Below are positions 2,485 through 52,617 of a DNA stretch of 52,617 nucleotides, one piece after another. Origin of the DNA: Basidiobolus meristosporus CBS 931.73 (lineage: Eukaryota > Basidiobolomycota > Basidiobolomycetes > Basidiobolales > Basidiobolaceae). Where the stretch lies: the NCBI GenBank assembly GCA_002104905.1, contig MCFE01000616.1, positions 1 to 52,617 of the forward strand, given 5' to 3'. The position numbers and the translations under genes were made by a program. The notes under the pieces are model-generated. The model ran no database searches. It was not told the origin of the DNA and was given only the letters and a program-made list of their open reading frames with translations. The number at the start of each line of letters is the position of its first letter. Positions within the stretch are counted from its first letter, which is position 1.

Positions 2485-3655
2485 ATTGGTCAAAGAGCCA
2501 ATTGGGGGCTGAAAGCTTCAGGATACTTTTGGACCAATTAGCCACTGGGGTACCATCCAATTGGAGTGATGGTAATTAAGATGGTAAGTATCAGTGTAGT
2601 TTATAGTGTGATACGCATTTATTTCCATTTACATTAAAGAAATATATCCAAATACTGGCTTTTACCTACCATAATAGTGGTATTCAATTGCGCACGTGAT
2701 GCAAACATTAGAAGTGGGCGCACTCATTTGTGCCAACCTCATTGCGTCAGATTGTGCCATAGTGTACAAGACTGTCCCATGTGGTGCAAAATTGTCTCAG
2801 AGCAATCCTGCCTACTGGTAGCTACAATATTGCACCCAATTGTTCTTAGAGACCGCAGATTGCACCGCGCACCCTGGCACAGTATGATGGAACCAGCCTA
2901 TTGGCTAAATACCAAAAAGCTCTTTGAAGATATTCAGGAGGTATTCATGCTAGAAGTGATGGCAACCAAGCATATGTTTGCAAGATATATATGTTACCAG
3001 CCGTACAATGTGTATGGCAGCTTTGCAAGTATCACACTCAAAAGCTGTAAAGTTGAGGTAGTAGAAGCTTGTTAATTGTGGCAGGTGTGCACATTTCTAG
3101 AGGTTAGTAAGCAGGAGGCCATAGTTTTTTTAATTCAACTATATGTGGAATACCAAAGGTAGTAGTGGGTAAGCAGATATAGAGGGTGTTTCTACAGAGG
3201 AATATATGAAATGCACAAGGGGAGGTAGAGAAAGGAAACACCATTTGGTAAATTGGTATGGTAGCATTATACAGCACTAGCTGTAGGCTGCCATACTGCC
3301 ATGATAATGCCATCAGAGGCTTGCAAAGAGGCCATCAAAGCACTGCCACATTCTTGGCCATATAAGGCAATTGGATGTACTGGCCAGTTAGATCCACTCA
3401 AATAGTTGTAAAGTGCACTAAGACTGCAACAATGGAATGCCACCCTTGACAAAACATTGTACAACACTGTTATATTTTATTAACTCTATTTGGCTGTAAA
3501 ATTAGCCAAACACCATTATCATCCTGTCACAAAATTGGGTAGATGGTCATTAATTCAAGCTGCTGGTATTATAGTGGTCTCCTGACAAGATCATGATGGC
3601 TGATCTGGATTGTATCCACCTGCAGGACCAAATTATTTTTCATTGGGTAAGTACC
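2485..3655 (+). repeat. Unidentified dispersed repeat, copy A (about 1.17 kb)
   Basis: The segment starts just beyond the copia LTR. It matches, in reverse complement and with divergence, two blocks on the other flank: 44690-45095 matches about 2485-2905, and 43048-43830 matches about 2910-3655. A shorter third copy lies at about 7570-7800. Parts keep a recognisable reading frame between copies (for example YWLNTKKLF and VEVSKQEAIVF), so it probably derives from a transposon gene, but I recognise no domain. Here the two blocks are contiguous; on the other flank a copia fragment separates them. Confidence 0.75.
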
Positions 3656-37766: not shown

Positions 37767-38720
37767 TTAATAATCACAGTACATTTGATTCACACCCCCA
37801 CGACAAACGGTTCCTGGAGCACAACGTTGTGTATATTCATATCCATTCGTGCAGACCTTGAACTCCCGGGATTGCCCAGGACTAACACATTTGGTCTCAA
37901 AGCCAGAACAGCGGCCAGGTTTGTTGCCTGGCTTAGATGGCTCAGTAGGGACCGGGTTGGAGGTAACCGTAGGCTTGTCAGAAGCAGCAGGCTTGGTGGG
38001 GGTAGGCTTGGCCGAGTCAGTGCTAGAAGGAGCTGGCTTGGTAGAGGTCGGCTTAGGTGGGGTGGAAGGCTCAGGATTGGTCTCGCTGCTGCCATTCCCA
38101 GTCACCTTCACCGTAGGTCTCTTGGGGAACAGGTCCTTGCCACTATACCCACCGTGAGTGAACTCGGGGATAGTGACATATCCAGGAAGATTGGCAACAA
38201 GCAGCTTTGGTCCGGTAATCGAGCCACTCGGGCTGCCTTGGACCTCAATATCAGCGCAGTTCATGTAGTACTCGCGATTTCCAGTCTTGTTGATCCAAGC
38301 CCAGGCAAATGTGGCCCTGCCACTGGGTGCCCCGGCTGGAATGGTGATGCTGTACTCACGAGACGCGATCAGGCAGTCGTCAAAGACATCCTTGAGGACA
38401 ACATAGGTCTTGTCATCGTAGGAGAGAGCGAATTGGCAATGGCCACCATCGTGAGGAGCTCCTCCCCCGATCTTTACTGGGAGACTGTTTCCAGCCTTGA
38501 TGGTCTGAACCACTCCGCCCTTGCCAAAGCCACGGCAAGGATATGGCCAACGACCCGTCTCCAATGGCGACGTCATGTCGTAATCAGGAGTACCCTTGTA
38601 AGTCGGGTTATACTGAGACTGACGTGGAGGTGGTTGGACCATTTCCATATGCCCCAAAGCATAGGGAGCAAGAGCCAGCAATGCAAGCGCGGGGAGAGAA
38701 AGCTTCGAGAGGACCATCAT
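37767..38720 (-). CDS. AA11-like chitin LPMO with C-terminal Cys-rich binding module, copy 1
   Basis: A 317-residue secreted copper monooxygenase, intronless. The signal peptide ends ...APYALG and the mature protein starts His-Met-Glu, supplying the N-terminal His of the copper brace. The second His is in GGHCQFALSYD. The segment ATFAWAWINKTGNREYYMNC is typical of AA11 chitin-active LPMOs. A linker of about 65 residues rich in Pro, Thr and Ser follows. The C-terminal module of about 47 residues (RCSGFETKC, EFKVCTNG, CAPGTVCRGG) resembles CBM19-type chitin binding. It oxidatively cleaves crystalline chitin with O2 or H2O2. The protein is identical to that at 39514-40467. Confidence 0.88.
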   Translation of the reverse strand: MMVLSKLSLPALALLALAPYALGHMEMVQPPPRQSQYNPTYKGTPDYDMTSPLETGRWPYPCRGFGKGGVVQTIKAGNSLPVKIGGGAPHDGGHCQFALSYDDKTYVVLKDVFDDCLIASREYSITIPAGAPSGRATFAWAWINKTGNREYYMNCADIEVQGSPSGSITGPKLLVANLPGYVTIPEFTHGGYSGKDLFPKRPTVKVTGNGSSETNPEPSTPPKPTSTKPAPSSTDSAKPTPTKPAASDKPTVTSNPVPTEPSKPGNKPGRCSGFETKCVSPGQSREFKVCTNGYEYTQRCAPGTVCRGGVNQMYCDY

Positions 38721-38829
38721 GTTAGAGAAGTAGAGGAATAATATAGCCAGCTAGCCTGCTAGAAGATTTGCAGATTTATCTATGCCAGTAGATAGATGTG
38801 GTTGCTGGTGAGGCAGGAACCCTTCAGAG

Positions 38830-39513: not shown

Positions 39514-40467
39514 CTAGTAGTCACAGTACATTTGATTCACACCACCACGACAAACGGTTCCTGGAGCACATCGTTGTGTATATTCATAACCATTGGTGCA
39601 GACCTTGAACTCCCGGGATTGCCCAGGGCTAACACATTTGGTCTCAAAGCCAGAGCAGCGGCCAGGTTTGTTGCCTGGTTTAGATGGCTCAGTAGGGACC
39701 GGGTTGGAGGTAACCGTAGGCTTGTCAGAAGCAGCAGGCTTGGTAGGGGTAGGCTTGGCCGAGTCAGTGCTAGAAGGAGCTGGCTTGGTAGAGGTCGGCT
39801 TAGGTGGGGTGGAAGGCTCAGGATTGGTCTCGCTGCTGCCATTCCCAGTCACCTTCACCGTAGGTCTCTTGGGGAACAGGTCCTTGCCACTATACCCACC
39901 GTGAGTAAACTCGGGGATAGTGACATATCCAGGAAGATTGGCAACAAGCAGCTTTGGTCCGGTAATCGAGCCACTCGGGCTGCCTTGGACCTCAATATCA
40001 GCGCAGTTCATGTAGTACTCGCGATTTCCAGTCTTGTTGATCCAAGCCCAGGCAAATGTGGCCCTGCCACTGGGTGCCCCGGCTGGAATGGTAATGCTGT
40101 ACTCACGAGACGCGATCAGGCAGTCGTCAAAGACATCCTTGAGGACAACATAGGTCTTGTCATCGTAGGAGAGAGCGAATTGGCAATGGCCACCATCGTG
40201 AGGAGCTCCTCCCCCGATCTTTACTGGGAGACTGTTTCCAGCCTTGATGGTCTGAACCACTCCGCCCTTGCCAAAGCCACGGCAAGGATATGGCCAACGA
40301 CCCGTCTCCAATGGCGACGTCATGTCGTAATCAGGAGTACCCTTGTAAGTCGGGTTATACTGAGACTGACGTGGAGGTGGTTGGACCATTTCCATATGTC
40401 CCAAAGCATAGGGAGCAAGAGCCAGCAATGCAAGCGCGGGGAGAGAAAGCTTCGAGAGGACCATCAT
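39514..40467 (-). CDS. AA11-like chitin LPMO, copy 2 (identical protein)
   Basis: It encodes the same 317 residues as copy 1. The two genes differ at roughly a dozen positions, all silent, including the stop codon (TAG here, TAA in copy 1). The duplicated unit is about 1.1 kb: coding region plus about 130 bases of promoter with the TATA box. Complete protein identity with only silent change points to purifying selection after duplication, or to gene conversion. Confidence 0.88.
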   Translation of the reverse strand: MMVLSKLSLPALALLALAPYALGHMEMVQPPPRQSQYNPTYKGTPDYDMTSPLETGRWPYPCRGFGKGGVVQTIKAGNSLPVKIGGGAPHDGGHCQFALSYDDKTYVVLKDVFDDCLIASREYSITIPAGAPSGRATFAWAWINKTGNREYYMNCADIEVQGSPSGSITGPKLLVANLPGYVTIPEFTHGGYSGKDLFPKRPTVKVTGNGSSETNPEPSTPPKPTSTKPAPSSTDSAKPTPTKPAASDKPTVTSNPVPTEPSKPGNKPGRCSGFETKCVSPGQSREFKVCTNGYEYTQRCAPGTVCRGGVNQMYCDY

Positions 40468-40576
40468 GTTAGAGAAGTAGAGGAATAATATAGCCAGCTA
40501 GCCTGCTAGAAGATTTGCAGATTTATCTATGCCAGTAGATAGATGTAGTTGATGGTGAGGCAGGAACCCTTCAGAG

Positions 40577-42735: not shown

Positions 42736-42736
42736 T

Positions 42737-43047
42737 TAGGGGGAAACAGTCACCAACAGGTGAAATCTTTATTTCAGTTGAAACAAAGAAGCCAGCACTA
42801 CTGTTGTAGCTTTGATACAAGAGTGTGTAGCTGAGGGGAATTTGTAGGTAAGTTTACAAGAAGTGATGATAGTTCTTCAGTGCTCAAGACACTGTTCAGG
42901 GGGAAGGGGGGTAGCAAGAGGGGTAAGAATGATTTGTGAACAACATTAATGAGGGGAATATGATAAGGATTGATATTCATCATAAAGGGAGTGTGCTGCT
43001 TCAGATATTGCAGCCAAAGGTCTGTCAAGTACTTCAGGTAGGCCAGC
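42737..43047 (-). mobile_element. LINE fragment, 5' truncated (3' terminal about 310 bp)
   Basis: This is the last part of LINE ORF2 (KLAYLKYLTDLWLQYL to the stop at 42798) plus the 3' UTR with AAATAAAGATTTCACC. It ends CCCCCTAA in LINE sense at 42736-42743 and has no poly(A). Truncation falls at about 43047, where the dispersed repeat begins. The same 3' UTR is found in the two larger copies. Confidence 0.88.
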
Positions 43048-43830
43048 TTGGCCCTATGAAAAGTAATTTGGTCCCACAGGTGGATCCAATCCAGATCATC
43101 CATCAAGATCCTGTTTAGAGACTGTCATAATAACAGCAGCTTGGAATTAGTGACCCTCCTGACAATCTTATAATGAGATCATGATGGTGTTTTGCAAATT
43201 TTACAGCCAAATAAAGGGATAAAACTTGACAATTTTTGGTTGGTGCTATGACAATATTTGCATGGTATTGTTGCGGTCTTTCAGCACTCTATTACTATTT
43301 TAAGTGGATCCAGTTGGCCAGGACTTCCAATTGCCTTATATGGCAAGAAACTTGACAGTATTTTGACAGCCTCACAGAAAGACTCTGATGGCTTTTTCTT
43401 GGCAGTATGATGGCCTGCCACTGGTTCTGTATAATGCTACCATACCAATTTACCAAATGGTATTTCCTTTTTCTACCTCCCCTTGTGCAATTCATATATT
43501 CCTCTGCAGAATCACCCCTGTTGATTTGCTTACCCACTACTATATTGGGTATTCCACATAAAGTTTGAATAAAAAAAAACTATGGCCTCCTGCTTACTAA
43601 CCTCTACAAACACACACACCTGCCACAATTGACATACTTCTATCACCTCAACTATACAGCTTTTTAGTGTGATACTTGCAAAGTTGCCATAAACCTTGTA
43701 CTGCTGGTAGCATATACATCTTGCAAACATATGCTTGGTTGTTGCCACTTCCGCCATGAATACCTCCTGAATATTGGCAAAGAACTTCTTGGTATTTAGC
43801 CAATATATTCCTTCTCCCTGCTGGATTCTA
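43048..43830 (-). repeat. Unidentified dispersed repeat, copy C (second block)
   Basis: In reverse complement it matches about 2910-3655. The reading frame is better kept here (IYWLNTKKFFANIQEVFM, VSKQEAIVFFYSN, then RKRKYHLVNWYGSII). The frame suggests a transposon-derived protein, but I recognise no catalytic motif. Confidence 0.7.
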
Positions 43831-43916
43831 GTCCCCCTTGTAGGTGTGCTCTGGCTTTTGTTTGCGTGAATTCCGTATTGAATGGTGTAGAAGTTGGCTT
43901 GTGACCACAAGAAATC

Positions 43917-44265
43917 TGTTGTAAAAACTTGTAATTCCACCTAAATATTCACCTAACTTAGTCAATTAAATCATTACCCTCAAATTCTAGAGAATACTGA
44001 CCAAATTCCTTGTTGGGATTTACTTAGAATATTTTCACCAAAATACCAGGTACCCAGAACATGAAAATTCTCAAAGTTGTCCAAACAGCCCCAAACTTTG
44101 CACACATGTTCTTGGGACCTTTCTTAGCCTACTCTATGTGTTTGCAATGCCAAGACCTGGTAAAAGTATAAATACTACTTTTACATTCCATATATCATTA
44201 AGTGAAAACCACATAATCTACTTGTTCTCCCAATCACTTCCAATATCTCCAAGACTCTTACAACA
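43917..44265 (+). repeat. Copia 5' LTR (349 bp)
   Basis: From TGTTGTAAAAAC to TCTTACAACA, with intact 8-bp terminal inversions. It aligns end to end with the LTR at 2145-2476. It is followed by GGTTATGAGCCC, in primer-binding-site position. Confidence 0.9.
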
Positions 44266-44296
44266 GGTTATGAGCCCCAAGCTGTCACTCTCTGCA

Positions 44297-44680
44297 ATGT
44301 CTACTACTGCTATTACTGGAATTTTTTCCTCTGCTGAAAAGTTGGATGGATCTAACTACCAAGTGTGGAAGGTGAAGACAAAGATGCTGCTACAAGAAAG
44401 AGGCCTTTGGGATATTGTCATGGGAAGAAAATGCCCTCCTAAAACTGTGAGAGAGGAAGTCTTGAAGTACCAGAAGAAAAAACAAAGTGCCTCTAACTGC
44501 ATTTGCCTTAATGTTAAAGACAAGTTGCTAATTCAGTGCTCAAGAGCAAAAACAGCAAAGAATGCCTGGAAGGCATTAGAAGACACCTACCAGTCATGTT
44601 CAGCGGCTAGGAAAGTGTATCTGAGACAAAAATTCTTTACTACAAAGATGCTGCCAGCAGAAGAAATGAAAATTCTGTAG
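44297..44680 (+). pseudogene. Copia gag, 5' part, truncated
   Basis: The start MSTTAITGIFSSAEKLDGSN leads into the copia gag landmarks YQVWKVKTKMLLQERGLW and ARKVYLRQKFF. The frame stops at 44680 and is cut there by the dispersed repeat. Only about 127 residues remain of a gag several hundred residues long. The fragment is non-functional. Confidence 0.85.
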
Positions 44681-44689
44681 ACTTGTTCC

Positions 44690-45095
44690 ATTGTACCATG
44701 CCAGGGCACGCGGCGTAATCCGTGGTTGTAAAGGACAATTGGGCGCAACATTATAGCTACCAGAAGGCAGATTTGTTCATGGACAATTTTGCACTATGCG
44801 GGATGATCTTGCACACTATGGCACAATCTGACACAATGAGGTTAGCACGGATGATTGCACCAACTTGTAATGTTTGCATCATGTGCGCAATTGGATATCG
44901 CTACTAAGGCAGGTAAAATCTGGTATTTGGATATGTTTCTTTAATGTAAATGGAAATAAATGTGTATCACACTAATAACTACACTGATACTTACCATTTC
45001 GGTTACCCTCACTCCAATTGGACAGTATCTCAGTGGTTAATTGGTCCAAAAGTATCCTGAAGCTGGCAGCCCCCAATTGGCTCATTGACTACTGA
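44690..45095 (-). repeat. Unidentified dispersed repeat, copy C (first block)
   Basis: This is the reverse complement of about 2485-2905 with moderate divergence, for example CCAATTGGGGGCTG and TTTCCATTTACATTAAAGAA read on the minus strand. Together with 43048-43830 it shows one repeat split by the copia LTR-gag fragment. Confidence 0.75.
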
Positions 45096-45212
45096 AAAAG
45101 CTACCTGATTTGCCATCAAATATCCCATTTTGCCCATTGAGCAAGTAAATCCTAGGGGAGACAGTCACCAATAGGTGAAATCTTTATTTCAGTTGAAACA
45201 AAGAAGCCAGCG

Positions 45213-47979
45213 CTACTGTTGTGGCTTTGATACAAGAGTGTGTAGCTGAGGGGAATTTGTAGGTAAGTTAATAAGAAGGGATGATAGTTCTTCAGTGCTC
45301 AAGACACTGTTCAGTGGGAAGGGGGGTAGCAAGAGAGGTAAGAATGACTTGTGAACAACATTAATGAGGGAAATGTGATAAGGATTGTTATTCATCATAA
45401 AGGGAGTGTGCTGCTGCAGATATTGCTGCCAAAGGTCTGTCAAGTACTTCAGGTAGGCCAGCTTGGGTTTTCCTGACTGCAGAATAAATTCAGCAAACTT
45501 CTTGACTTCAGGATCTCCAAGTATAGTTCTCCAGCAGGAGCCAGGTGTTGTGGTGTGTTCTCTTCCAGGCCTTAATCAGTGGGCTGTTGCAGTTGTGAAG
45601 TCTGAGGTATAATCTGGTTCTAAGGTAGAGAAGTATGATCTTATAGGGCATAAACCCAAAAGCACCAAGAATAGCATGTCTGTAGGGGCATTCAGGCAAA
45701 TGAGGCACCAAGGAGGTAATGCACCATACTGCAAACTTGTCAAGCTTAGTGCAGTCTCTAGAAGTAAGAGAGAGAAGTGGTAGGCCAAATTCCAGGACAG
45801 GGAAGACAAACTGCTTGAGTAGAAGGAGGCAGCTGGGAGCTGAAGTTGTAGGAGGAGTAACAGCCAGTAGCTTGTGGAGTGCCTGTCTTGCCAGGATAAT
45901 TCTCTTCTTCAGGTGTGCTCCAGAGTCTAGTCCAGTAGGAAGGAAAGGAAAGCCAAGATATGTAGCAGAAACCTGAGCAGGTAGAGTGGAGTTCTCCAAG
46001 TTGATGGGAGAGCCCAAAGGTACTGTCTTTGCAATGGAAAGCTGGAGATTATTCTTCTGCAGATACTGGTGGATGGTCTGGGAGTCTTGTTGCACATTGG
46101 AGGAGGATATTCTGATGTCATCAGCAAAGAGAGTAACCAGGCAGTCAGCTGAGAGTCTTGGGAAATCATTCAGGAAGATGGCAAACAGTATAGGACCAAG
46201 CACAGAGCCTTGAACCACTCCATTAGGAACTGAGTACACAGCTGATTGCTCACTTGGGTGCAGAATTCTTGCTTGTGGATCCAGAAACAGAGACCTGACA
46301 AGGAGGGTGAGAGAGGTACTGGAGAAGCATTGCAGCTTGGACCAAAGCAGATTTCTGTCAACTGAATCAAAGGCCTTAGTAATATCAAACAGAACAGAGG
46401 GATACTTGCACTGGAGAGAGTGATCTTGGCTAAGTATGACTGCATATTCCAAGGAGAGGCCAGGAACAAAGCCAAACTGTGCAGGATGAAACTTGAGGGA
46501 GTCAGAGTAGAGCTCCTGAGCAAGCAGAAGCTCAAACACCTTTCTGCAGGTGGGCAGCAGAGATATTGGCCTGTAGGAGCTAGGATCCAGGTACTTTCCT
46601 TTACCCTTGTACAGTGGCAGAACATTTGCAAAGGACCATTCCTCAGGAGTAGAAAGCTGGGCGGAGCATTGCTGAAACAGTGGAAGCAGAAGTGCAGACA
46701 TGGCCTTGGTACTAGTCTTCAGAAGCTCATAAGAGATTGTGTCCACACCTGGAGCAGTAGAGTTGGGAAGCCTCTTGAGCACATTATGGATTCTCCCTTG
46801 ATCAAGTGCAAGTGGGATGGGCAGAGTCTTGAAATCAGGATGAAAGCCTGGAGTTGAGTACTGCTTTGTAGAGAAGAAGATGTTAGCCAGCTGCTCTGTT
46901 GAAGGTAACTTCCTGGAAGAGGGCCTCATTGCCCTGTAGAGTCTTGATACTGTTCTTGTTATAGAGTTGGAAGATTGCAGAGGCAAGGAACTCATAATAT
47001 GATCCCAGAGCTGAGTATGCAGAGTATGGTGAATTGCCTTGGAGTGGTGTATTGCTGTCAGGAGGAGTTTCTCTGTTTTTGGGTTAGGGAAACTCAGGTA
47101 GCTTTGTTGCAGGGTTGAAACAATGGATTCCCATTTTCTTGAGGTAACAGCAGTAGTCTTGCATGGCAGTGAGAGGGAGGCAGACACCAGAATCAGATGC
47201 TTCACAAAGAGTCAGGCATAGTTGAGATCATCTGGCAGAGAAAGTAGCAAACTGGCAAGCTTCAAGTAGTTCCCAAAGTCTTTCTTCTGATTCTTGGTAG
47301 CTTTGTGGGTGAGCACAGTAAGTTTTGGCAGCTTCTTCTTCACAACTGGTTGCATAGAAAGGGACCAGGCTGGGTGGTCAGATGCTCTCAAGGATCCTAG
47401 CTCAGCTCCAGAGAATTGCTTAACTTCATTCACAAAGTAGAGGGCAGCAGCAGAAGGGCAGATCCAGTCAACACATCTTTTCTCAGATTGAGCACCTAGT
47501 GCTAGCAGATGGCTTTCTCTCAGGAAGTTCAGTAGGAATGTAGACCTTGGCTTCATTCTTGCAGTCAGAGTAGTCTTGCTCTCAGGATGGGGAATGTTGA
47601 GATCTTCAAGCAAGATAATAGGTGTTGGTATAGATTGCTGGTATTGCTAAACTTTCTGGCATATAACTTGCACTTCCTGAAGGGCAAGACTTGGAGGCAG
47701 ATAGCAGAGCACCAGAATGATAGTTGGCAACTGGAGAGCAGCACACTAAGGGGAGTAAAGAGGAACACAGAGCTGAGGAGTATTGATGGTAGAAGAGATG
47801 AAGCAGATAGAGGAGGTATTCTTTGTTCTAGGAGTAGAGAAGCAATATTGATTAGTCAAAAGTATAGAGGGTAGCTGGACATCAATCAAGCACAGGAGGG
47901 AAAATCTTGAAAGAAGTCTCTCTAGAGTTGGTCTTGATGGCTGTATGCTGTTGCAGTTAAGCAACAGAACTTCAGGTAG
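45213..47979 (-). pseudogene. LINE ORF2: APE endonuclease + reverse transcriptase (proximal copy)
   Basis: Reading from 47979, the endonuclease starts almost at once (LLLNCNSIQPSR), continues to DLNIPHPE (Gly of GDLN is Glu here) and reaches SDHPAWSLSM. The RT has NSTAPGVDTISYELLK, LPLYKGKGKYLDPSSYRPIS, DITKAFDSVDR, GVVQGSVLGPILFAIFLNDF and the catalytic LFADDIR. A C-terminal part with CYRHA-type CPYRHAILGAFG follows. Breaks are a TAG at about 47648, a TGA replacing Trp at about 47205-47207, and a frameshift near 45545. The RT core from 47205 to 45508 is a single open frame. There is no AUG before the endonuclease (see the UGA feature). Confidence 0.92.
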
Positions 47980-47982
47980 TCA
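47977..47982 (-). other. In-frame UGA-CUA between LINE ORF1 and ORF2 (proximal copy)
   Basis: ORF1 ends ...TTSA then TGA, followed by CTA CCT GAA GTT in the same frame, leading within five codons into the endonuclease. UGA followed by CUA is an established readthrough-prone context. The site is identical in the distal copy. Confidence 0.7.
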
Positions 47983-49107
47983 GGCAGAGGTTGTAGCTTC
48001 TTCAGAGGCAGCATTGACAATGTGACCTGCAGAGTCCCAGTGCTCTTCAAATGGTGCATCACTTAAGTCAGCAAGGAGGGAAATGGCATGGTTCTTGAGG
48101 AAGTATGCTACATCATAGGAGGGGGCTTGTCTCTTGATGGCAGCAAAGAAAGACAGAATGGCAACATGGGCTGGAGGCTTGTTGAACAGTAGAGAGTCAG
48201 AGGATTCAGATTCTTCAGGCACTATCTTGAAGTCAGTTTTCAGCCAGTTAAGGTTCTTCTCCACAAAGGCAACAAATGGGTCAGCAATGTTTTGGTCTAG
48301 AATAACCTCCAGAATCTTCCCTTTTCTCCAGGCCAGGTTAACAATTCTTGAGAGCTGAATATTGCATGCCTTGAGTGCTTTCCTGATGTTGGAAATGGGA
48401 GTCCAGGGAACTTGCTTCAAGTACACCACAGTCCAGGTAGAAGCTGGTGGTAGGTTTGCTGGGGGCTTGTAAGTCCTTCTGTGTGGCAATGTAGCTGCAG
48501 TAGTCAGATTGGAGTCCACATTCTTAGTAGAGGGTTTTCTTGATGTGTCTTGCGGAATGGTACTGGAGCTGGATGTGCTGAGAATTCTTGCTAGAACCTT
48601 GCCTGCATAAGTCTGAGGTATAGCTGAGGTGACTGTAGAGGTGGTGACAGCTGGTGCAGGTGGAGAGGCAGAAACTGAAGCAGGAACTGAGGTCACCTGG
48701 GAGAAGGCAGTAGAAGCAGGTTTTCTGGGAGGAACAGAGTTCACTATCCAGTTGTTCTGTAAAACACTGGAGTAGCTTTTCTGTGGAACAGGATCTTGCT
48801 CTTGAACAGGAACAGAAGCAGGAGGCTGGGGCTGAGCAGTAGTGGTAAGAGAGTGGCACTCCAAGGAAGCTTTTGCAAGGCATCTCTGGCAGTTTTCAGG
48901 GCAGTATTGGCTTCATTCTTGAGCTTCTTGCATTGGGCATCCAGTCTCTTGTTTTCAATAGCCAGGACAGTATTGGCAGCCTCTAAATCAGCAATTCACT
49001 TCTCAATTGCAAGGAATCTCTGACAAAATGCATCAGTAGAAGTGCGGCAACTGGGAGAGCAGTGGCAGGAATAGACTCCATTGACAGTGGCTTCTTGAGG
49101 CAGAAGT
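47983..49107 (-). pseudogene. LINE ORF1 (gag-like), proximal copy
   Basis: The clear frame is 48864-47983: a low-complexity Pro/Ser/Thr/Val-rich part followed by WTVVYLKQVPWTPISNIRK, which resembles an RRM-like LINE ORF1 core. Upstream, in another frame, lies a coiled-coil (IADLEAANTVLAIENKRLDA, then KKLKNEANTALKTARDALQK) preceded by a Cys-rich stretch (YSCHCSPSCRTS). One base missing in the A-run near 48870 would join them. A TGA after FLAIEK interrupts the upstream part. The coiled-coil fits ORF1 multimerisation. Confidence 0.75.
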
Positions 49108-49173
49108 GACTTAGGGGGGAGACAGTCACCAACAGGTGAAATCTTTATTTCAGTTGAAACAAAGAAGCCAGCG

Positions 49174-51942
49174 CTACTGTTGTAGCTTTGATACAAGAGT
49201 GTGTAGCTGAGGGGAATTTGTAGGTAAGTTAATAAGAAGTGATGATAGTTCTTCAGTGCTCAAGACACTGTTCAGTGGGAAGGGGGGTAGCAAGAGAGGT
49301 AAGAATGCCTTGTGAACAACATTAATGAGGGGAATGTGATAAGGATTGATATTCATCATAAAGGGAGTATGCTGCTGCAGATATTGCTGCCAAAGGTCTG
49401 TCAAGTACTTCAGGTAGGCCAGCTTGGGTTTTTCTGACTGCAGAATATAGTGAGCAAACTTCTTGATGTCAGGATCTCCAAGTATAGTTCTCCAGCAGGA
49501 GTCAGGTGTTGTGTGGTGTGTTCTCTTCCAGGCCTTAATCAGTGGGTTGTTGCAGTTGTGAAGTCTGAGGTATAATCTGGTTCTAAGGTAGAGAAGTCTG
49601 ATCTTATAGGGCATAAACCCAAAAGCACCAAGAATAGCATGTCTGTAGGGGCATTCAGGCAAATGAGGCACCAAGGAGGTAATGCACCATACTGCAAACT
49701 TGTCAAGCTTAGTGCAGTCTCTAGAAGTAAGAAGAGAAGTGGTAAGCCAAATTCCAGGACAGGGAAGACAAACTGCTTGAGTAGAAGGAGGCAGCTGGGA
49801 GCTGAAGTTGTAGGAGGAGTAACAGCCAGTAGCTTGTGGAGTGCCTGTCTTGCCAGGATAATTCTCTTCTTCAGGTGTGCTCCAGAGTCTAGTCCAGTAG
49901 GAAGGAAAGGAAAGCCAAGATATGTAGCAGAAACCTGAGCAGGTAGAGTGGAGTTCTCCAAGTTGATGGGAGAGCCCAAAGGTACTGTCTTTGCAATGGA
50001 AAGCTGGAGATTATTCTTCTGCAGATACTGGTGGATGGTCTGGGAGTCTTGTTGCACATTGGAGGAGGATATTCTGATGTCATCAGCAAAGAGAGTAACC
50101 AGGCAGTCAGCTGAGAGTCTTGGGAAATCATTCAGGAAGATGGCAAACAGTATAGGACCAAGCACAGAGCCTTGAACCACTCCATTAGGAACTGAGAACA
50201 CAGCTGATTGCTCACTTGGGTGCAGAATTCTTGCTTGTGGATCCAGAAACAGAGACCTGACAAGGAGGGTGAGAGAGGTACTGGAGAAGCATTGCAACTT
50301 GGACCAAAGCAGATTTCTGTCAACTGAATCAAAGGCCTTAGTAATATCAAACAGAACAGAGGGATACTTGCACTGGAGAGAGTGATCTTGGCTAAGTATG
50401 ACTGCATATTCCAAGGAGAGGCCAGGAACAAAGCCAAACTGTGCAGGATGAAACTTGAGGGAGTCAGAGTAGAGCTCCTGAGCAAGCAGAAGCTCAAACA
50501 CCTTTCTGCAGGTGGGCAGCAGAGATATTGGCCTGTAGGAGCTAGGATCCAGGTGCTTTCCTTTACCCTTGTACAGTGGCAGAACATTTGCAAAGGACCA
50601 TTCCTCAGGAGTAGAAAGCTGGGCTGAGCATTGCTGAAACAGTGGAAGCAGAAGTGCAGACATGGCCTTGGTACTAGTCTTCAGAAGCTCATAGGAGATT
50701 GTGTCCACACCTGGAGCAGTAGAGTTGGGAAGCCTCTTGAGCACATTATGGATTCTCCTTTGATCAAGTGCAAGTGGGATAGGGCAGAGTCTTGAAGTCA
50801 GGATGAAAGCCAGGAGTTGAGTACTGCTTTGTAGAGAAGAAGATGTTAGCCAGCTGTTCTGTTGAAGGTAACTTCCTGGAAGAGGGCCTCATTGCCCTGT
50901 AGAGTCTTGATACTGTTCTTGTTATAGAGTTGGAAGATTGCAGAGGCAAGGAACTCATAATATGATCCCAGAGCTGAGTATGCAGAGTGTGGTGAATTGC
51001 CTTGGAGTGGTGTATTGCTGTCAGGAGGAGTTTCTCTGTTTTTGGGTTAGGGAAGCTCAGGTAGCTTTGTTGCAGGGCTGAAACAATGGATTCCCATTTT
51101 CTTGAGGTAACAGCAGTAGTCTTGCATGACAGTGAGAGGGAGGCAGACACCAGAATCAGATGCTTCACAAAGAGCCAGGCAAAGTTGAGATCATCTGGCA
51201 GAGAAAGTAGCAAACTGGCAAGCTTCAAGTAGTTCCCAAAGTCTTTCTTCTGATTCTTGGTAGCTTTGTGGGTGAGCACAGTAAGTTTTGGCAGCTTCTT
51301 CTTCACAACTGGTTGCATAGAAAGGGACCAGGCTGGGTGGTCAGAGGCTCTCAAGGATCCTAGCTCAGCTCCAGAGAATTGCTTAACTTCATTCACAAAG
51401 TAGAGGGCAGCAGCAGAAGGGCAGATCCAGTCAACACATCTTTTCTCAGATTGAGCACCTAGTGCTAGCAGGTGGCTTTCTCTCAGGAAGTTCAGTAGGA
51501 ATGTAGACCTTGGCTTCATTCTTGCAGTCAGAGTAGTCTTGTTCTCAGGATGGGGAATGTTGAGATCTCCAAGCAAGATAACAGGTGTTGATATAGATTG
51601 TTGGTATTGCTGAACCTTCTGGCATATAATTTGCACTTCCTGAAGGGCTAGACTTGGAGGCAGATAGCAGAGCACCAGACTGATAGTTGGCAACTGGAGA
51701 GCAGCACAGTAAGGGGAGTAAAGAGGAACACAGAGCTGAGGAGTATTGATGGTAGAAGAGATGAAGCAGATAGAGGAGGTATTCTTTGTTCTAGGAGTAG
51801 AGAAGCAATATTGATTAGTCAAAAGTATAGAGGGTAGCTGGACATCAATCAAGCACAGGAGGGAAAATCTTGAAAGAAGTCTCTCTAGAGTTGGTCTTGA
51901 TGGCTGTATGCTGTTGCAGTTAAGCAACAGAACTTCAGGTAG
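49174..51942 (-). pseudogene. LINE ORF2 (distal copy)
   Basis: The endonuclease is intact from 51942 (LLLNCNSI, LLGDLNIPHPE, SDHPAWSLSM). The frame breaks at about 50779, where one extra base turns LPIPLALDQG into LPYPT. The RT frame then runs from 50744 with FADD intact. A second break at about 49730 (two bases fewer than the proximal copy) precedes the C-terminal part, which ends at 49174. The copy is non-functional but retains the GDLN motif that is lost in the proximal copy. Confidence 0.92.
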
Positions 51943-51945
51943 TCA
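51940..51945 (-). other. In-frame UGA-CUA between LINE ORF1 and ORF2 (distal copy)
   Basis: The stop and context are the same as at 47977-47982, with ORF1 and ORF2 again in the same frame. Conservation in two copies argues against a private mutation. Confidence 0.7.
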
Positions 51946-52422
51946 GGCAGAGGTTGTAGCTTCTTCAGAGGCAGCATTAACAATGTGACCTGCAGAGTCC
52001 CAGAGCTCTTCAAATGGTGCATCACTTAAGTCAGCAAGGAGGGAAATGGCATGGTTCTTGAGGAAGTATGCCACATCATAGGAGGGGGCTTGTCTCTTGA
52101 TGGCAGCAAAGAAAGACAGAATGGCAACATGGGCTGGAGGCTTGTTGAACAGTAGAGAGTCAGAGGATTCAGATTCTTCAGGCACTATCTTGAAGTCAGT
52201 TTTCAGCCAGTTAAGGTTCTTCTCCACAAAGGCAACAAATGGGTCAGCAATGTTTTGGTCTAGAATAACCTCCAGAATCTTCCCTTTTCTCCAGGCCAGG
52301 TTAACAATTCTTGAGAGCTGAATATTGCATGCCTTGAGTGCTTTCCTGATGTTGGAAATGGGAGTCCAGGGAACTTGCTTCAAGTACACCACAGTCCAGG
52401 TAGAAGCTGGTGGTAGGTTTGC
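51946..52422 (-). pseudogene. LINE ORF1, C-terminal fragment (distal copy)
   Basis: This is the last roughly 158 codons of ORF1, matching 47983-48466 with few changes. It covers the RRM-like core (VVYLKQVPWTPISNIRKALK). The N-terminal half is absent because the telomere begins here. Confidence 0.85.
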
Positions 52423-52617
52423 TTAGGGTTAGGGTTAGGGTTAGGGTTAGGGTTAGGGTTAGGGTTAGGGTTAGGGTTAGGGTTAGGGTTAGGGTTAGGG
52501 TTAGGGTTAGGGTTAGGTTAGGGTTAGGGTTAGGGTTAGGGTTAGGGTTAGGGTTAGGGTTAGGGTTAGGGTTAGGGTTAGGGTTAGGGTTAGGGTTAGG
52601 GTTAGGTTAGGTTAGGT
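52423..52617 (+). repeat. Telomere, (TTAGGG)n
   Basis: 195 bases of TTAGGG repeats running 5'-3' to the end of the window, the G-strand orientation of a right chromosome end. TTAGG units interrupt it at about 52513-52517 and at the last units (52602-52616). These could be true variants or homopolymer miscalls. Long frames across it are repeat artefacts. Confidence 0.98.

Follow-up and report, generated by a model that had tools for sequence, protein, structure and literature searches.

A telomere-dwelling LINE with a predicted APE-type endonuclease in Basidiobolus meristosporus, a probable case of addition to broken or eroded chromosome ends

Telomerase and the reverse transcriptases (RTs) of long interspersed nuclear elements (LINEs) are thought to share ancestry, and retroelements that dwell at chromosome tips are known in several forms, namely HeT-A, MoTeR, TRAS and the endonuclease-deficient Penelope-like elements. 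Here we describe a further one, LINE family A, three copies of which lie near the end of a 52,617-nucleotide (nt) stretch of DNA from Basidiobolus meristosporus CBS 931.73 (the entire contig MCFE01000616.1, C887 in our numbering, referred to as ‘the window’). Family A is a telomere-dwelling LINE with a predicted APE-type endonuclease, and it very probably multiplies by reverse-transcribing its RNA at chromosome ends from which the telomere repeats are gone. Among such tip-dwelling elements it represents a new form with an endonuclease of APE type, and no earlier description of this LINE was found in open-licence PMC text, a scope that leaves most subscription journals outside. Among the systems closest to it, HeT-A, TART and TAHRE of Drosophila are added terminally and head-to-tail, truncated to varying extents at the 5' side, with an oligo(A) 3' end on the proximal side, the TRAS and SART elements of Bombyx (R1 clade) carry poly(A) tails, and in LINE/SINE pairs of the stringent type, such as UnaL2 of the eel, the 3' hairpin of the LINE, with short repeats after it, is also found on a short tRNA-like element.

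Published work adds the following. TRAS and SART insert into telomere arrays (PMC10088271), and Drosophila is the exception with respect to telomerase (PMC5537684). MoTeR1 and MoTeR2 of Magnaporthe and FoTeR of Fusarium are non-LTR elements (LTR, long terminal repeat) residing at TTAGGG telomeres with the 5' end tipward and short TTAGGG stretches between them, and their truncated copies are re-capped, likely by telomerase (PMC7367193, PMC12857005); in FoTeR, and in MoTeR1 as cited there, the RT is followed by a C-terminal restriction-enzyme-like (REL) endonuclease (PMC12857005). Endonuclease-deficient Penelope-like elements (Athena of rotifers, and fungal members) start synthesis from chromosome 3' ends laid bare by breakage or by loss of telomere protection and are largely confined to ends, telomere repeats then being added to the truncated 5' end (PMC3846280).

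Measured against these descriptions, family A is most similar in its working to the endonuclease-deficient Penelope-like elements, from which it differs by (i) a LINE-type RT, (ii) a predicted endonuclease/exonuclease/phosphatase (EEP) fold in which the catalytic Glu is replaced by Asp, and (iii) a partner resembling a short interspersed nuclear element (SINE). Membership of the Penelope group was rejected in view of this predicted fold and of an RT whose closest solved chain is LINE-1 ORF2p. As described for MoTeR and FoTeR, the 5' end of family A points to the tip and its 3' end sits on telomere repeats, but family A has two open reading frames (ORFs) and its predicted EEP/APE-type endonuclease is N-terminal. 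A CRE-like affiliation was likewise discarded, given this N-terminal domain and a simple motif search of five proteins that returned no REL motifs (no CCHC and no RHD, RHN or KPD, with one N-terminal RAD in P0002); within the literature cited here, fungal telomeric LINEs now extend beyond the REL-endonuclease group. With TRAS and SART, family A shares being an APE-type LINE at repeats of the telomerase type, and its predicted endonuclease fold matches that of TRAS1 EN; in contrast to these elements, it has no poly(A), mostly carries no more than about two repeats on its 3' side and is not flanked by array on both sides. Terminal attachment and head-to-tail arrays are common to family A and HeT-A/TART, whereas TERT RBD pieces and TTAGGG caps are present here and the 3' end is telomere-complementary. 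Finally, A and a short element, B, share a 3' hairpin plus short repeats in the manner of the UnaL2 pairs, except that here the repeat is telomeric and the chromosome end serves as target.

The genome of strain CBS 931.73 was sequenced with PacBio (PMC7466969), and the assembly used here (G000) comprises 89.0 Mb in 1311 contigs. The end of the window is arranged as follows.

42736..42743, + strand: 3' junction of LINE copy 1, telomeric, TTAGGGGG preceded by AGGG (from the sequence; 7 telomeric nt, G-run of 5)
42744..43051, - strand: LINE family A copy 1, a 3' fragment of ~308 bp (BLAST against copy 2)
43052..45151, no strand: other sequence, 2.1 kb, separating copies 1 and 2 and containing the open frame 43991-44680 (no family A match by BLAST)
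45152..45158, + strand: 3' junction of copy 2, diverged, CTAGGGG (from the sequence; 2 telomeric nt, G-run of 4)
45159..49110, - strand: LINE family A copy 2, 3.95 kb, complete but for the outer 5' region that longer copies have (BLAST and comparison with other copies)
45508..47211, - strand: ORF2 part of copy 2 with RT (Pfam RVT_1, E-value 1.6e-25)
47980..48912, - strand: ORF1 open frame of copy 2, 310 amino acids, longer in locus L047 (open reading frame)
49111..49119, + strand: junction of copies 2 and 3, TTAGGGGGG (from the sequence)
49120..52422, - strand: LINE family A copy 3, 5'-truncated, with the telomere directly on its 5' side (99% to the L047 copy, stopping at reference position 3304)
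49126..49139, - strand: 3'-terminal hairpin, stem TCACC/GGTGA and loop AACA (from the sequence; stem kept in families B, C, D and D2)
49144..49149, - strand: AATAAA in RNA sense, immediately upstream of the hairpin (from the sequence)
49539..50888, - strand: ORF2 part of copy 3 with RT (Pfam RVT_1, E-value 8.6e-26)
50764..51942, - strand: N-terminal part of ORF2 of copy 3, predicted APE-type (EEP) endonuclease with catalytic Glu changed to Asp (predicted fold; Pfam below cut-off)
51940..51945, - strand: UGA CUA, separating ORF1 from ORF2 within one frame, a putative readthrough stop (from the sequence; 8 of 8 matching family A copies)
52423..52617, + strand: terminal (TTAGGG)n array of ~32 units, to the contig end (from the sequence)

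BLAST of copy 2 onto the window gave 95% identity to copy 1 over 306 bp (42746-43051) and 98% to copy 3 (49120-52423). Copy 2 is near full length, as four longer copies elsewhere extend ~0.6-0.8 kb further 5' (one stops at ~0.5 kb), and its ORF2 is not a single open frame. Copy 3 is attached by its 3' end to copy 2 where the latter is truncated on its 5' side, TTAGGGGGG alone separating the two, and copy 3 joins its own cap with a microhomology of 1 nt (T). An initial annotation, made from the letters of the window, had described three minus-strand 3' ends at 42736, 45152 and 49111 with a common end sequence, the 3' ends being centromere-proximal, copies 2 and 3 head-to-tail and the last copy running straight into TTAGGG; sequence and BLAST confirm this arrangement, and its interpretation as a telomere-associated LINE is supported as far as its tests could be run.

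Family A is abundant beyond the window. A 29-nt pattern of its 3' end matched 806 times forward and 85 times in reverse across the assembly (up to two mismatches), while the reversed control pattern had no match assembly-wide; with separate patterns, 891 3' ends, 470 RT regions and 57 5' regions were counted, a fall in copy number from 3' to 5' that is a mark of reverse transcription. A search with the 3' untranslated region (UTR) gave 128 candidates at first look, of which the best 40 were scored (97-100% alike) and 30, the window's copy included, could be placed relative to contig ends. The 5' side faces the nearer contig end in 27 of these best 30, the exceptions lying on C284 and C217 (contigs of 12-14 kb) and C726; the end faced is no more than 10 kb away in 24, and in 2 it is the opposite end that is this close, where 4.4 each would be expected. 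In 21 telomere-bearing ends (20 of large contigs, first listed, plus the window), related 3' ends of all families, weak matches included, number 79 on the + strand versus 1 on the - strand, and 20 of the 21 ends hold at least one. Among the matches listed on contigs with a listed forward array, those of families A and B are all on the + strand; within 20 kb to the left of the array we find 24 of 24 A 3' ends and 22 of 22 RT regions among the matches listed, 11 of 11 A 5' regions on contigs with a listed array, and 20 of 21 listed B ends, the remaining one lying 48 nt past the array start. In the matches and ends read, the proximity to TTAGGG arrays and the polarity predicted by the initial annotation are borne out, and the mostly internal or randomly oriented copies that it had named as contrary evidence are not what was seen.

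The 3' junctions themselves are telomeric in a restricted manner. Altogether 150 3' ends were read, weak matches included (A 76, B 30, D 24, D2 13, C 6, E 1), and the telomeric nt ahead of the terminal G-run number 0 in 8, 1-2 in 25, 3-9 in 109 and more than 9 in 8 of them, i.e., at most 9 in 142; at least TTA precedes the G-run in 117. Genome-wide, a full TTAGGG occurs within 0-5 nt of 461 out of 653 exact A 3' ends (control 0). A poly(A)-like run is absent from all 150 related junctions, consistent with the claim that the 3' ends lack poly(A). The length of the G-run depends on the family (mostly 6 or 7 in A; 4 in 14 and 5 in 7 of the 24 D ends), and the C-run of the RNA is therefore probably encoded by the element itself. 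Since the 150 3' ends have 143 distinct 14-nt flanks, most attachments are independent.

Breakpoints could be located where a flank recurs in another context in the sequence read, which was the case for 103 of 153 junctions, caps included; 19 of the 103 were dropped (8 for a telomeric flank, 6 because a single alternative copy existed, 3 as full-length ends of B and 2 for a telomeric alternative). After this cleaning, an overlap of 1 nt or more with the telomere repeat is seen at 60 of 73 element junctions (35 expected from a null of 47.5% for random joins within family A; p ~1e-9) and one of 2 nt or more at 38, the microhomology being mostly 1-4 nt; for caps the count is 9 of 11 with at least 1 nt (p 0.02), and the uncleaned values are 73 of 87 and 13 of 16, respectively. 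The repeat added beyond the overlap measures at most 9 nt in 68 of 73 cases (exactly 9 in 9 of these), 10-13 nt in none and 14-24 nt in 5, and this stop at 9 nt suggests a template of 1.5 repeats, located either in the LINE RNA or in telomerase. The initial annotation had envisaged 3' junctions at a fixed register of the repeat and a TTAGGG end annealing to the CCCUAA end of the RNA. The junctions do lie mostly on TTAGGG, but a single fixed register was not found; priming on the RNA end may well occur, yet what serves as primer resembles a broken or truncated end more than a long TTAGGG overhang, because the junctions mostly hold 0-9 nt of repeat and, in most cases, a breakpoint microhomology of 1-4 nt.

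We also asked whether the interrupted sequence resumes beyond the element. Of 78 qualifying junctions, 5 had too little downstream sequence; among the 73 tested, no match was obtained in 66, though no search was aimed at target-site duplications as such, and the remaining 7 matches are element 3'-end sequence, since some alternative contexts are junctions themselves. Beyond inserts of another kind, three A bodies do continue (L035, L042, L049), so that resumption is detectable when present. The lack of resumption, taken together with the breakpoint microhomology, makes the elements look added at ends. In the loci read, they are stacked head-to-tail and variably 5'-truncated, and at most ends a TTAGGG array caps the outermost one. 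Among 21 caps, 9 touch A or come within 35 nt of it and 1 more comes within 52 nt, 4 are found at or close to B, 1 sits on D, and that of locus L050 sits on a D2 element. As for the inserts themselves (L035:2754-3085, L042:8708-9407, L049:4359-4692), 5-7 nt of the body are repeated at their edges, as LTR-element insertions would show. Long A copies carry at their 5' end 2-3 tandem units of ~100 bp (L045:6723-6970, L047:9062-9200), which resemble the promoter monomers of some LINEs.

The encoded proteins are those of a LINE. An RT domain with its catalytic motif is present (RVT_1, E-value 2.6e-25; FADD in A, YADD in D2), ORF2 is open in two A copies and one D2 copy, and two close matches to the LINE protein are annotated K493DRAFT models of the same strain. 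The APE-type assignment, already made in the initial annotation, agrees with the predicted N-terminal fold of ORF2. In this domain the catalytic Glu is Asp in all 3 family members that cover the site and in D2, against Glu in 17 of 17 others, while Asn8, Tyr93, Gly125, Asp126, Asn128, Asp171, Asp201 and His202 are kept. ORF1 and ORF2 of families A and D2 lie in one frame, with UGA CUA between them and no ATG near the ORF2 start (UGA besides the window at L047:7408-7410 and L050:8896-8898); UGA-CUA is a readthrough context, and the arrangement suggests that ORF2 may be expressed by stop-codon readthrough. For telomerase, two pieces of TERT RBD above cut-off are encoded on contig C880.

The tail of family A is not its own alone, as the hairpin stem TCACC/GGTGA is common to families A, B, C, D and D2, with differing loops. 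Element B measures ~519 bp, shows an identical 5' end in 14 of 30 copies and matches 450+33 times genome-wide; a B-box-like GGTTCAAATCC lies near its 5' end in 17 of 30 copies, most others being shorter, and no tRNA-like match was obtained with Rfam up to an E-value of 0.5 (3 loci) or with ARAGORN (5 loci). Because of the stem held in common, B looks like a SINE-like element driven by A, and a search of the same open-licence PMC text, again with most subscription journals outside its scope, found no earlier report of a telomere-dwelling SINE. D2 constitutes a second LINE family (~67% nt identity to A in matching pieces, L050) and has, at L050:6049-8895 (-), an open 949-residue ORF2, a hairpin 3' end as in A and the same change of Glu to Asp.

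These features are best supported as traces of end-primed reverse transcription on broken or eroded ends with subsequent re-capping, a mechanism in which priming itself is what we infer from the sequences. The 3' end of the LINE RNA would consist of the hairpin, the C-run and ~1.5 CCCUAA repeats, and a broken or eroded DNA 3' end would pair with this tail through 1-4 nt; alternatively, telomerase might first add up to one template length of repeat to the end. ORF2p, brought by the hairpin, would then extend the end into cDNA, usually stopping early, and the new end would either be re-capped by telomerase or receive the next element. B and D2 would use a hairpin and tail of the A type. A bolder version, which we put forward tentatively and at somewhat less than an even chance, regards the LINE as a second, movable telomerase: its tail of hairpin, C-run and 1.5 CCCUAA would extend broken ends through 1-4 matching bases, repeat first and element thereafter, the SINE-like element and the second LINE would share this template tail, with RNA 3' ends reading ...CCCCCCUAACCCUAA, and the endonuclease Glu would have changed because no nick is needed. 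An APE-type LINE and a SINE-like partner apparently adding to ends beside an encoded telomerase offer many natural junctions (150 read, ~890 A 3' ends), and these bear on end-priming, on the need for a nicking enzyme and on the division of broken-end repair between telomerase and retroelements.

Closest to this scheme is a variant in which telomerase acts first, adding one template length (~9-10 nt), whereupon the LINE RNA takes over via its C-run; the microhomology would then be that of telomerase, and the LINE RNA 3' ends would not already contain UAACCCUAA. The encoded TERT pieces speak for this, as does the likeness between the microhomology of caps, which telomerase presumably made, and that of element junctions; furthermore, a single pass along a template of 1.5 repeats, the length typical of telomerase, would suit the 9-nt limit. 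A broader range of lengths would be expected, however, and a hand-over after just one pass is needed; we consider the variant possible but less likely than not. Both sources of the 0-9 nt of repeat, LINE RNA tail or one telomerase pass, predict the same DNA, sharp limit included.

Terminal addition at broken or eroded ends fits better than insertion inside arrays in the manner of TRAS/SART or MoTeR, where the endonuclease would nick the array, target-primed reverse transcription would follow, and breakage or recombination would later shorten the flanking TTAGGG. The window's own array has ~32 units, yet nearly all junctions hold at most 9 nt ahead of the G-run; added repeat of 10-13 nt is missing, the breakpoints lie with microhomology in many different sequences and not in array DNA, and the catalytic Glu is Asp. 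Array insertion was dropped for the shortness of these remnants (142 of 150) and appears unlikely. Improbable to a still greater degree is the spread of old stacks by recombination, i.e., break-induced replication between subtelomeres with retrotransposition rare or over. One 14-nt flank does occur six times among the 3' ends, and two more flanks occur twice, in part reflecting the fixed end of element B, but against such a spread stand the many distinct flanks, the near-identity of the best 40 3' UTRs, the open ORF2 of two A copies and one D2 copy, and the copy number falling from 3' to 5'. That repeats merely appear at contig ends because contigs break in them is hardly credible and was dropped in view of polarity and arrays: array starts are lopsided (108 forward versus 3 reverse, i.e., mostly right contig ends) and three loci at left contig ends begin inside a LINE, but internal-repeat breaks would yield both polarities, which the ends reaching an array do not show, and matches at left contig ends point left. 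The forward excess of 3' ends parallels that of the arrays, and in view of the three loci beginning inside a LINE we read both as what looks like an effect of the assembler.

Several observations weigh against terminal addition as favoured here. Fewer than 3 telomeric nt are found at 33 of the 150 3' ends (8 with none) and more than 9 at 8; 5 of the 21 caps sit on sequence matching none of the short family queries; one telomere end (C355) holds a - strand copy and another (C352) is without any related 3' end in 10 kb; and, of the best 30 matches, that on C726 points to the farther end and that on C558 is internal, with 98 kb between it and the end to which it points. Apart from the Glu, the endonuclease domain is conserved and therefore probably serves some purpose, whereas pure end-priming needs none. 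The 2.1 kb that separate copies 1 and 2 in the window are not accounted for by this scheme, and the TERT match falls into two pieces, one with an internal TAG (perhaps an intron). As to the measurements, the microhomology null was built on family A sequence only, whereas the flanks are mixed; for only 43 of the 78 qualifying junctions did the locus read extend to the tip or close to it, the others belonging to short loci of ~2.5-3.3 kb; and all results come from one assembly.

At the family A 3' ends near 97.9 kb on C558 and 59.3 kb on C726, which today lie internally or point to the farther contig end, the junctions are telomeric; these could be relics of fusion or rearrangement. Elsewhere in the window, the open frame between copies 1 and 2 (43991-44680) and another at 814-2133 look like gag and RT of a Ty1/copia element. 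Two further open frames ~1.7 kb apart (37767-38750 and 39514-40497) have an identical 327-residue translation, for which, in the case of 37767-38750, Pfam gave no match at an E-value of 0.001; the protein looks secreted, with a His after the signal peptide, and bears what we take to be a resemblance to lytic polysaccharide monooxygenases.

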